Source: Sphingobium indicum BiD32
GTDB taxonomy: Bacteria; Pseudomonadota; Alphaproteobacteria; Sphingomonadales; Sphingomonadaceae
Direction: 5' to 3'
Assembly (NCBI RefSeq): GCF_000382885.1
Contig: NZ_CAVK010000141.1
Coordinates: 1 to 64,000, forward strand
Length of the DNA stretch: 64,000 nucleotides
Below are positions 7,724 through 10,046 of the stretch, in pieces; the first letter of the stretch is position 1; every line of letters starts with the position of its first letter. The notes below the pieces were generated by a model. That model was given only the letters and a program-made list of their open reading frames with translations. It was not told the origin of the DNA and did no database searches. The translations under genes were made by a program, and so were the position numbers.

Positions 7724-7798
7724 CTAGTGGATTGATTTTGACATTTGCATCCCCTGGCGGCTGGGATGGGTCTGCAAATGTCAAAATCGGACCACTAG
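7724..7798. repeat. Long inverted repeat (family B), 26-bp arms
   Basis: The left arm 7724-7749 (CTAGTGG...GACATTTGCA) and right arm 7773-7798 (TGCAAATGTC...CCACTAG) are reverse complements except for three adjacent positions, with a 23-base loop. The unit lies between the divergent xdhC-like gene and the end of the S24 repressor gene. It looks like a mobile palindromic element rather than a terminator. Confidence 0.85.
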
Positions 7799-7816
7799 AT
7801 AGGAACGCCCCTCGCG

Positions 7817-8485
7817 TTAGACCAGACGCCTGCCGGTCCAGACGACCCGGCCAACAATATCCACCAACGTCGGATCAATATCGGTCCAGTCGGGATAGTG
7901 CAGGTTATCGCTGACCACGCTGAAGCGCCCCCGCAATGGTCCCATCGCGATCCGCTTGACCATCAGCACTCCGTCGAGCCGCAACACATAGACGCCGTCG
8001 CGCAACCGGGTGGCGTCATCGTCATGATCGACCATGATGTCGTCACCGTCGCTGAGCGTCGGCGCCATTGATTCGCCATCGACCCGGATGATCGAGACGC
8101 GCTGCGGCCGCACCCCCAGATGCCGCAGCCAATGGGCGTCGAACGCCATCACCCCGGCGGCGCGCTCATCATCGTCCAGCGTGCCGACGCCCGCCGATGC
8201 GCCCAGCGCCAGGCGGGGCACCGCCACGACGGCGGGCATACCGCGCGTGCGGGCGGGGATTGCCATGGGCGCGGCGCTCCCCCCCAGCATCTGTTCAGCC
8301 ACGCCGAAATAGCGGGCCAGCACATGACGGTCCGCCTCATCCAGCTTGCGTGGCGTGCCGCGTTTGATGAACTGCTGGATGTAAGCGGGGTTGCGGCCGA
8401 TCAGCCGGGACAGATCGGCATAATTTTCCCCCCGTTCGGCAATCAGCCGATCCAGCGCGATCCGGGCGTTCTGCGATTCATCCAT
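7817..8485 (-). CDS. S24-peptidase CI-like transcriptional repressor
   Basis: The 222-residue product joins an N-terminal XRE-like helix-turn-helix (about residues 20-62, NYADLSRLIGRNPAYIQQFI) to a C-terminal LexA/CI-type S24 peptidase domain. The catalytic pair is visible: Ser139 in VDGESMAPTL and Lys177 in LMVKRIA. A possible Ala98-Gly99 autocleavage bond lies in the linker. Such proteins dimerise on palindromic operators and are inactivated by RecA-stimulated self-cleavage. It is divergent from a tiny Cro-like gene, with palindromes between them that suggest autoregulation. Confidence 0.85.
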   Translation of the reverse strand: MDESQNARIALDRLIAERGENYADLSRLIGRNPAYIQQFIKRGTPRKLDEADRHVLARYFGVAEQMLGGSAAPMAIPARTRGMPAVVAVPRLALGASAGVGTLDDDERAAGVMAFDAHWLRHLGVRPQRVSIIRVDGESMAPTLSDGDDIMVDHDDDATRLRDGVYVLRLDGVLMVKRIAMGPLRGRFSVVSDNLHYPDWTDIDPTLVDIVGRVVWTGRRLV

Positions 8486-8501
8486 ATCCAGTCCATAATG
8501 A

Positions 8502-8515
8502 TAGGAATTTTCCTA
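8502..8515. promoter_or_regulatory. Operator-like palindrome 1 of the CI/Cro-like intergenic region
   Basis: TAGGAA-TT-TTCCTA is an exact dyad of 6-bp arms with a 2-base centre. It lies 17 bases upstream of the repressor start codon and inside the spacer of a possible minus-strand promoter (TTGTCT as -35). This placement would fit autorepression. Confidence 0.55.
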
Positions 8516-8521
8516 GACAAG

Positions 8522-8536
8522 TAGGATATTGGCTTA
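8522..8536. promoter_or_regulatory. Operator-like half site 2 (degenerate)
   Basis: TAGGAT followed by a poorly matching right half (CTTA) sits 20 bases from site 1 and 19 from site 3. Only the left half resembles the other two sites, so this call rests mainly on spacing. Confidence 0.3.
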
Positions 8537-8540
8537 GAGA

Positions 8541-8554
8541 TAGGAATATGCCTA
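8541..8554. promoter_or_regulatory. Operator-like palindrome 3 of the CI/Cro-like intergenic region
   Basis: GATAGGAATATGCCTATC (8539-8556) is a near-perfect dyad with the same TAGGAA half site as site 1. It overlaps the spacer of a weak plus-strand promoter candidate (TTGGCT at 8529, TATCGA at 8553). Confidence 0.5.
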
Positions 8555-8600
8555 TCGACTTGCAGCGGGTGAGTCGGACCAACAAGGGAGAAAATTGCCG

Positions 8601-8786
8601 ATGCTGTTGCAAGCGATCGAACGATTCCTTCGCCAATATGACATGCCGCCAACTACCTTCGGCCGCGCCAGCACGCGCGATCCACGGCTGGTTTTCGACC
8701 TGCGCCAAGGGCGCGAGCCGGGGGACCGCGTAAGGAGACGAATAGAACATTTCATGAACACATATCGCAGGAGCATCAGCCAATGA
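8601..8786 (+). CDS. Small Cro-like helix-turn-helix protein
   Basis: The 61-residue product (MLLQAIERFLRQYDMPPTTF..) is all-helical in appearance, with a helix-turn-helix-like stretch PPTTFGRASTRDPRLVFDLRQG at about residues 16-37 followed by a basic helix. I recognise it as a sphingomonad-type conserved hypothetical; DNA binding is inference. ATG at 8601 has GGGAG about 10 bases upstream; a TTG at 8595 is an alternative. Its stop overlaps the next start (ATGA), so the two genes form an operon divergent from the S24 repressor. Confidence 0.7.
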   Translation: MLLQAIERFLRQYDMPPTTFGRASTRDPRLVFDLRQGREPGDRVRRRIEHFMNTYRRSISQ

Positions 8787-9154
8787 CAAGCATGCATCAT
8801 GGATTCAGGCCTGAAAATCTGGTCCAAAACAAACCGATAGGAAAAACCCAGCGCGACCCGCTGCCCCGCTTGCTGGAGCAGTTGCTCAAGCGGGCGGGCG
8901 CACCCGCGATGATCGAGCGCGCGGTGAGTCGCCCCTGGGCGAGCGCCCTGTTCGAGGGACGTCGCCATGTCATCGCGCTGCGCTTGTCCGGCGCGCGTCT
9001 GGCGACGCGCTTCTGCGACTTTGCCGAAGATATCGGGAGCGCCGAATGGTCGCTGCCGGGCCACTTCGTCGCCGACATCATCATCGACAATGTGCGGGAC
9101 GAAGGGACCGAATTCTGGCTGGAACTGTCCGCGCTGACGATCGAGGACTGGTAA
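8783..9154 (+). CDS. Conserved protein of unknown function
   Basis: The 123-residue product was not recognised. It has a basic N-terminal half (RDPLPRLLEQLLKRAG, about residues 24-39) and a C-terminal half rich in beta-type residues ending in a hydrophobic/acidic patch (ADIIIDNVRD, TIEDW). No signal peptide or membrane segment is seen. It is translationally coupled to the Cro-like gene, so it is the likely output of the CI/Cro-like module. Confidence 0.7.
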   Translation: MTSMHHGFRPENLVQNKPIGKTQRDPLPRLLEQLLKRAGAPAMIERAVSRPWASALFEGRRHVIALRLSGARLATRFCDFAEDIGSAEWSLPGHFVADIIIDNVRDEGTEFWLELSALTIEDW

Positions 9155-9158
9155 GAGG

Positions 9159-10046
9159 TTAGCGCCCCCGGCCAGCCATGTTGCGGAGCGCGCCCAGGGC
9201 CGCGCGCAGGGCGTCGTCGGCGTCCTGCGCCACCATGTCGCGCACCGGCACGGCGGGTGTGACCGGCATGTCGGCGATGACCCGCACTGTGCCAGCATCC
9301 GCCGCGGGGGCGCGGCTGCGCTGGGCAAGGCCGCGCTCCAGCCGCTGGGTCAATTCGGTGATCGACAGACCCTGAGTCGGGATGGGATCGAGCGGCGCGA
9401 CTGGGGCCGCTGCTTCCTGCCCTGCTTCCGGTTCAGCAACAGGGGCGGCCGGGCGCAGGAAGGTCGGCTGGGGCAATTCTTCCTCTGCGATCGGCAAGGG
9501 CGCGCTGGGCATGACCAGGCCGGCGGACGGGACGATGGCGTCCTGCTCCGGTTCGGGATGGATCGCCAGCGGCCTGCGTATTGCGTCAGGGCGGGCAAAA
9601 ATGTCGAGACCGTTGAAATCGCGGCTGGCAAAGATAGGCGCGCGCGCGGGTGCATCGGGATGCGCGTCAGCGCGGCGCAGCGATGGAATGGCATCATCGA
9701 CAGGGGCAGCACGTCCCCGCGCCAGCGCGGTCAGTTTTGAAAAAGCGAAACCCATTTTTCTTGCTCCCTGGACGCGCAACCTGCGTCCCTCTTGTTCATC
9801 TGCCTGGTCCTGCCGGCGCGTCAGCCCCATCAGTCCCACCGCCATCAGCGCGACGAAGCCCGCCAGCAACAGCCGGGCTTTCAACCCCAGCGGCGGGGCA
9901 GCGGCAGGCAAACTCTCCGACAGGCCACTCGACGCCACGACCATTTCGATCAGCCCGACCGGAATCCACAATATCAGCAACGCTGCGGCCAGGCCGCCCA
10001 GCGCCATGATGGCGATCCCTCTTGTCTGTGCTGCCTTGATGGCCAC
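9159..10046 (-). CDS. Membrane-anchored Ala/Pro-rich protein of unknown function
   Basis: The product (295 residues from a GTG at 10046) has a basic start (VAIKAAQTRG), two membrane segments (about residues 13-35 and 57-75), then a long Ala/Pro/Arg-rich soluble tail to about residue 295. An ATG at 10007 with GAGGG upstream would give 282 residues; I prefer the GTG because it puts positive charge before the first helix. It starts 19 bases after the glycosyltransferase gene, so it probably belongs to that transcription unit. Function not recognised. Confidence 0.65.
   Translation of the reverse strand: MAIKAAQTRGIAIMALGGLAAALLILWIPVGLIEMVVASSGLSESLPAAAPPLGLKARLLLAGFVALMAVGLMGLTRRQDQADEQEGRRLRVQGARKMGFAFSKLTALARGRAAPVDDAIPSLRRADAHPDAPARAPIFASRDFNGLDIFARPDAIRRPLAIHPEPEQDAIVPSAGLVMPSAPLPIAEEELPQPTFLRPAAPVAEPEAGQEAAAPVAPLDPIPTQGLSITELTQRLERGLAQRSRAPAADAGTVRVIADMPVTPAVPVRDMVAQDADDALRAALGALRNMAGRGR

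Follow-up and report, generated by a model that had tools for sequence, protein, structure and literature searches.

We report that Mu-like prophages lie, in relatives of Sphingobium indicum BiD32, within a small operon that encodes a Cro-like protein and a 123-residue protein and is divergent from an S24-family repressor gene. The locus was analyzed in a window of 64,000 nucleotides from S. indicum BiD32 (Table 1), and in a sample of 61 genomes, 37 from the genus (Sphingobium) and 24 from other families of the order. Literature searches directed at a phage landing site of this kind returned no account of the operon, and nothing relevant was listed for DUF3168 proteins associated with a repressor or for terminator decoys. 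The most probable explanation, in our opinion, is that the locus is a host-owned, phage-derived switch, in which a repressor would act on O1-O3, would be released by the SOS response, and would control a tail-completion output, and which would also serve certain Mu-like phages as a preferred landing site. The architecture of the locus, its conservation, the family and fold assigned to the 123-residue protein, and the insertions are all read from sequence.

Table 1. Positions of the features of the S24/Cro-like/123-aa locus in the window.
Feature	Start	End	Strand	Basis
S24-family (LexA/CI-like) repressor gene, 222 aa	7817	8485	-	Pfam and PHROG matches, alignment
Putative operator O1, TAGGAATTTTCCTA	8502	8515		Sequence
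Half-site TAGGAT (TAGGAA in most relatives)	8522	8527	+	Sequence comparison
Putative operator O3, GATAGGAATATGCCTATC	8539	8556		Sequence
Cro-like protein, 61 aa	8601	8786	+	Helix-turn-helix from sequence pattern alone
Predicted diverged tail-completion/terminator-fold protein, 123 aa, PF11367/DUF3168 relative	8783	9154	+	Profile comparison, predicted structure
Position corresponding to the Mu-like phage insertions in related Sphingobium, AATCTG^GTCCGAA^A (123-aa gene, codons 13-16)	8821	8828		

The repressor matched Pfam Peptidase_S24 (E 6.5e-16, above the curated cut-off) and PHROG 4, described as "transcriptional repressor" (E 1.4e-36), and the S24 profile gave no match at 1e-5 when compared with PDB sequences. 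The first-pass annotation had proposed a repressor of the self-cleaving type, and its gene position and its Ser/Lys dyad (S139 and K177) both held, together with a candidate cleavage site in the sequence GASAG (A98-G99). In an alignment of 23 S24 repressors, K177 was found in every row and S139 in 22, and A98-G99 was nearly invariant. The domain, the dyad, and the Ala-Gly site suggest that this protein is a self-cleavage-type repressor, the cleavage of which would be stimulated by RecA. The single exception at S139 was found in a member of the genus (L012, G001) whose repressor is otherwise conserved; inducibility may have been lost in this species because Leu replaces the catalytic Ser139.

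The repressor of the nearest named relatives, which belong to Sphingobium, is 99% identical. The same genome contains a second S24/Cro-like pair (L092, G000:C30:9000-18832; L093), with a repressor that is 52% identical, near a large relaxase-like gene (named by eye), perhaps as part of a conjugative element. Five S24 paralogues of the genus (L240, L242, L252, L255, and L266) are devoid of the Cro-like gene, the 123-aa gene, and the operator core described below. On the other side of the repressor gene, a long inverted repeat (TGATTTTGACATTTGCA ... TGCAAATGTCAAAATC, window 7725-7800) separates it from an xdhC-like gene.

The repressor and the divergent Cro-like gene are separated by 115 bp (8486-8600). 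Two palindromes and a weak half-site had been noticed in this gap at a spacing of about 20 bp, and this arrangement was recovered, with half-sites starting at 8502, 8522, and 8541. Four near-palindromes (7-bp arms, a gap of at most 2, one mismatch) were counted, whereas 5000 first-order Markov sequences averaged 0.44, and 0.44% of them contained at least four; under the same arm and gap definition, no perfect palindrome was present in the gap. A 15-mer operator core, TCCTAGACAAGTAGG (window 8511-8525), was found without any change upstream of the S24 gene in 61 of 80 named loci, and with one or two different bases in several others, as would be expected of the conserved operators anticipated by the first-pass annotation. 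The exact sequence TAGGAANNTTCCTA occurs a single time in the assembly, at O1, and 25 of its 27 sites across the genus are located at an S24 locus, whereas a reversed control pattern gave four sites. The spacer of O1 corresponds to GGAA-N2-TTCC, with a wider consensus AGGA-N4-TCCT. A sigma-70 consensus scan of the region 8400-9250 did not find a promoter.

These half-sites resemble the targets of RogA from Caulobacter crescentus, an alphaproteobacterial S24-like repressor with an N-terminal HTH, which controls the GTA activators gafYZ and binds two GGAA-N4-TTCC repeats in its target promoter (PMC9632790). As far as the available part of that report describes it, RogA (CCNA_00080) may be the nearest described relative of the window repressor, likened by description and not by sequence, as both combine an N-terminal HTH with an S24-like domain, GGAA/TTCC inverted repeats, and a link with phage-like particles. 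The window repressor could then be the sphingomonad form of RogA, with the repression of gafYZ-type GTA activators elsewhere in the genome as its main task. DUF6456 (GafY-type) genes were indeed found in 49 of the 61 genomes, and a near relative (L181, G009:C23) contains a GTA-like cluster (terminase, portal, capsid, and tail, identified by eye) that includes a PF11367 gene. However, the spacer of O1 is N2 instead of N4, and the window repressor keeps its dyad, whereas RogA is reported, in the same available part, to be without catalytic residues. Furthermore, the conserved target of the window repressor appears to be its own divergent operon and not gafYZ; TAGGAANNTTCCTA has no other site in the genome, and an inspection of 1.5 kb on each side of 30 DUF6456 genes returned one motif match, GGAA-N2-TTCC in L134. 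A RogA-type main role is thus unlikely. The GTA_TIM profile gave no match in the 61 genomes, and the Caulobacter control was matched.

The 61-residue protein has no family match in Pfam, NCBIfam, or PHROG. The divergent gene described in the first-pass annotation is present, and its helix-turn-helix is a matter of sequence pattern. In genomes of other families, an HTH gene occupies the middle position (small HTH proteins were named by eye), and two candidate identities for it were not supported, namely a relative of the 61-aa Cro-like protein (hhalign 1.5) and a relative of GafY/DUF6456 (hhalign 0.3). The start of the 123-aa gene overlaps the stop of the Cro-like gene (ATGA), in agreement with the earlier proposal that the former is coupled to the latter as the output of the switch.

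The S24 protein was detected in all 37 genomes of the genus, and all three genes in 36 of them, the Cro-like and 123-aa genes being missing only from G025, a genome that is 60% complete; the proposed three-gene module is thus conserved. Of the 80 named loci, 75 contain the Cro-like gene and 73 the 123-aa gene, and the five loci with neither gene are S24 paralogues. The dN/dS values calculated for 13 pairs ranged from 0.01 to 0.26 for the S24 gene, from 0.05 to 0.37 for the Cro-like gene, and from 0.11 to 0.37 for the 123-aa gene, all below 0.4. The glycosyltransferase gene of the window was located within the 6-kb flank in 64 of the 80 named loci, and an xdhC-like gene was found in the flank on the other side in 38 of them, so that the neighbours look like ordinary chromosomal genes and not, as had been envisaged as a refutation, like a decayed prophage. 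Because of the conservation of the genes, of the operator core, and of the chromosomal neighbours, and because of the low dN/dS, sequence comparison identifies the three genes as a maintained host locus rather than a decayed prophage. An ancient prophage immunity region that survives as a functionless remnant would account for the phage-type relatives of all three genes, and the second S24/Cro pair of this genome does lie beside a relaxase-like gene. Nevertheless, the three genes are under purifying selection among conserved chromosomal neighbours, and the repressor, the operator, and a PF11367 gene recur across the order, which makes this origin without function very unlikely; a lambda-like prophage remnant was rejected on the same grounds of synteny, purifying selection, and order-wide recurrence.

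Analyzed alone, the 123-aa protein of the window matched no family in Pfam, NCBIfam, or PHROG, and no match at E 0.1 was obtained against 50,697 phage records. Its relationship emerged from the genomes of other families, since in 9 of these 24 genomes a PF11367 (Tail_completion_gp17/DUF3168) gene is encoded on the strand opposite to the S24 gene and at most 0.9 kb from it. In six of the nine, the two genes are separated by an AGGA-N4-TCCT palindrome. Three of these S24-linked PF11367 genes were scanned singly and gave E values of 1.8e-21, 2.8e-11, and 8.8e-14. When the 123-aa family was compared with the S24-linked PF11367 proteins, the hhalign probability was 97.3 (E 2.6e-11), and 96.5 (E 7.7e-10) in a repeat with 52 sequences; four unrelated controls gave 0.09-0.26, and the comparison with PF11367 proteins of GTA clusters, located elsewhere in the genomes, reached only 25.5. 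Among the 52 family members taken individually, three showed a weak contact with PF11367 (best E 0.0038) and nine with Phage_Bbp19 (best 0.0025).

The AlphaFold model of the 123-aa protein (pLDDT 85.7) has a helix-strand-strand-helix-strand-strand order. Its Z scores were 10.7 with a monocin cap, 10.5 with a terminator-type chain of the native GTA particle (6tba_4A), 9.2 with the T5 p142 terminator, 8.2 with the Mu terminator, and 8.1 with lambda gpU, on a scale where collagenase and PilO domains, which have unrelated folds, reach 8.5-9.0 against the same model. A Foldseek search against the PDB gave no match at E 0.001 or better (best 2.7e-3), and the best matches among predicted viral structures were named DUF3168 or tail completion proteins. 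Taken together, the profile comparisons and the predicted fold identify the 123-aa protein as a diverged member of the tail-completion/terminator proteins (PF11367/DUF3168). In one genus locus listed as L009 (G004), the 123-aa gene is split over two frames.

The operon of the window itself contains no insertion. In G007, by contrast with this uninterrupted arrangement, the Cro-like and 123-aa genes are separated by 39.7 kb, corresponding to a transposable prophage of the Mu-like kind that encodes an S24 repressor of its own and an HTH_35 protein. Its gene set includes a Mu transposase, a MuB-like ATPase, gp27, a Mu portal, and gpF, with the domains PF09299, PF02316, AAA/TniB, PF06074, PF04233, and PF11985. 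A similar phage interrupts the operon in Sphingobium faniae (L235, G460), G181, G315, and G086, and a more distant one does so in G087. Both sides of the insertion were seen in all these genomes except G087, where one side was seen, and the insertion of G086 runs across the end of a circular-type contig. The statement of the first-pass annotation that no phage genes are present has therefore to be revised, as the output belongs to a tail-terminator family and the operon of relatives is a recurrent landing site for Mu-like phages.

The junctions were examined at 21 loci, of which 16 were resolved, and after removal of three that repeated another, 13 distinct junctions were retained. Their distances from the operator core, in the downstream direction, are 60, 72, 74, 95, 97, 104, 110, 278, 296, 297, 301, 303, and 303 bp, and thus form two groups (60-110 and 278-303 bp). 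No resolved junction lies outside the stretch that runs from the promoter side to codon 16 of the 123-aa gene; in the other genera of this family, the resolved insertions extend from just before the start of the Cro-like gene to about codon 24, or lie near the end of the Cro-like gene. A 5-bp target duplication, CCGAA, was found at the S. faniae insertion, and CAGCG and AACGG fit such duplications in two metagenomic cases, AACGG being pieced together from two contigs; no 5-bp duplication was visible at the G007 junctions. The insertions are independent, because their positions, their flanks, and the phage sequences differ. As read from the sequences, they separate the 123-aa gene from its promoter, while the host repressor and the putative operators are intact in these lysogens.

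Several other features of the G007 prophage were recorded. The tail protein of this phage had no match at 1e-10 in the phage records. A single open frame (L193:207-2318) encodes both its Mu-type portal and an Acb1 anti-CBASS domain (PF06074 and PF23474, E 1.7e-40), and similar Acb1 stretches were detected in nine other genomes of the family. Another protein of the prophage (L391:13638-13976) shows weak homology to the Cro-like protein of the host (17.4 bits in a single-sequence search) and is a candidate targeting or cross-regulating factor.

The frequency of the operon as a landing site was estimated in 397 genomes of the family, chosen regardless of location, with the G007 portal as the query. 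The portal was found in 21 genomes, but nine of these matched the C-terminal Acb1 part alone and were not counted as Mu-type phages. Four of the 12 remaining matches are located in the module, or three of six at 50% identity or above; the other eight were not seen in the module, some being on separate contigs, with an uncertain position in G116 and for the remainder of the G365 contig. Were insertion random across about 4.5 Mb, each event would have a probability of about 7e-5 of falling within a 310-bp zone, and the probability of three such hits in six would be of the order of 1e-11. In a survey of the genus, the tail protein matched in 8 of 94 genomes, four of them strongly. Of these four matches, those of G007 and G460 are in the module, that of G028 is elsewhere, and that of G497 is a fragment at the edge of a contig. 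Pieces of the module were also found at the phage end in 11 of 17 viral contigs retrieved with the G007 tail protein, and none in six, a proportion that may be biased because the trimming of provirus contigs in the viral collection may favour S24 flanks over others.

The best account of these insertions is guidance by a conserved landmark, and we infer that the phages were guided to this position rather than kept there by selection. Alternatively, the switch could be a small and ancient host locus of unrelated function, the conserved and almost unique operator region of which provides an address for non-damaging Mu-like integration, much as Tn7 uses attTn7 as its integration address, and the loss of the 123-aa gene would then be a by-product of integration. 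The position of all 13 distinct junctions on the Cro side, 60-303 bp from the operator, the exact core in 61 of the 80 loci, and the weak Cro-like homologue of the G007 phage are consistent with this idea. It also agrees with phiA, a Mu-like phage of the sphingomonad Citromicrobium, for which the available text reports that 24 of 24 lysogens carry the phage in a hypothetical gene, within a zone of 40 bp, despite lytic, replicative transposition throughout the chromosome (PMC12486242). Nevertheless, the distances from the operator to the junctions vary and form two groups, the G007 phage pieces contain none of the operator motifs searched, and no targeting protein was identified. We consider a mere integration address to be a serious, if doubtful, alternative.

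In the switch that we favour, binding of the S24 repressor to O1-O3 would keep the divergent operon silent. DNA damage would cause the loss of the repressor, most likely through RecA-stimulated self-cleavage at ASA/G, and the operon would be expressed; the Cro-like protein would then tip the switch, and the 123-aa protein might act on the way in which a resident gene transfer agent or prophage completes its tails. For certain Mu-like phages, the operon would be the preferred landing site, and in their lysogens the insertion severs the 123-aa gene from its promoter. A bolder alternative, which we find rather improbable, would be an SOS-released anti-phage device, in which a mimic of a tail terminator prevents tailed phages, whether induced or incoming, from finishing their tails properly, and Mu-like phages respond by operator-guided integration at the point where the mimic loses its promoter, which disarms the host. 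The recurrent landing of Mu-like phages in the operon is a hint that host and phage have been in conflict for a long time. If the favoured interpretation is right, a CI/Cro-type switch has been retained throughout a bacterial order to control one tail-terminator-like protein that is not part of a prophage, and phages of a kind regarded as inserting at random have acquired the ability to locate it. The use of stand-alone tail proteins to their hosts, and the way in which a Mu-type transposase that is unspecific in lytic growth is steered to one address for lysogeny, would become testable in sphingomonads.

In lambda-type immunity regions, a CI repressor of the self-cleavage type is divergent from a small Cro gene, with two strong operators and one weak. 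The likeness drawn by the first-pass annotation to this geometry was borne out on the chromosome, as the repressor is divergent from a Cro-like gene, with conserved putative operators about two helical turns apart. Unlike lambda, however, the locus is chromosomal and syntenic, with ordinary flanks and no replication or structural phage genes adjoining, and its single output gene would encode a stand-alone terminator-fold protein. This protein resembles PF11367/DUF3168 and the GTA, Mu, and lambda terminators (6tba, 9lj8, and 3fz2) by its predicted fold, and in sequence through the S24-linked PF11367 genes. It differs from them by a diverged N-terminal part, a location outside a structural gene cluster, probable control by a CI-like repressor, and translational coupling to a Cro-like gene. 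Finally, as far as the available part of its description goes, phiA shares with the insertions reported here a transposable sphingomonad phage and one integration spot, and it has 5-bp target duplications (PMC12486242) such as the one at the S. faniae insertion. The host gene is unnamed in that text, and we predict that the 40-bp zone of phiA may be located in the operon described here.
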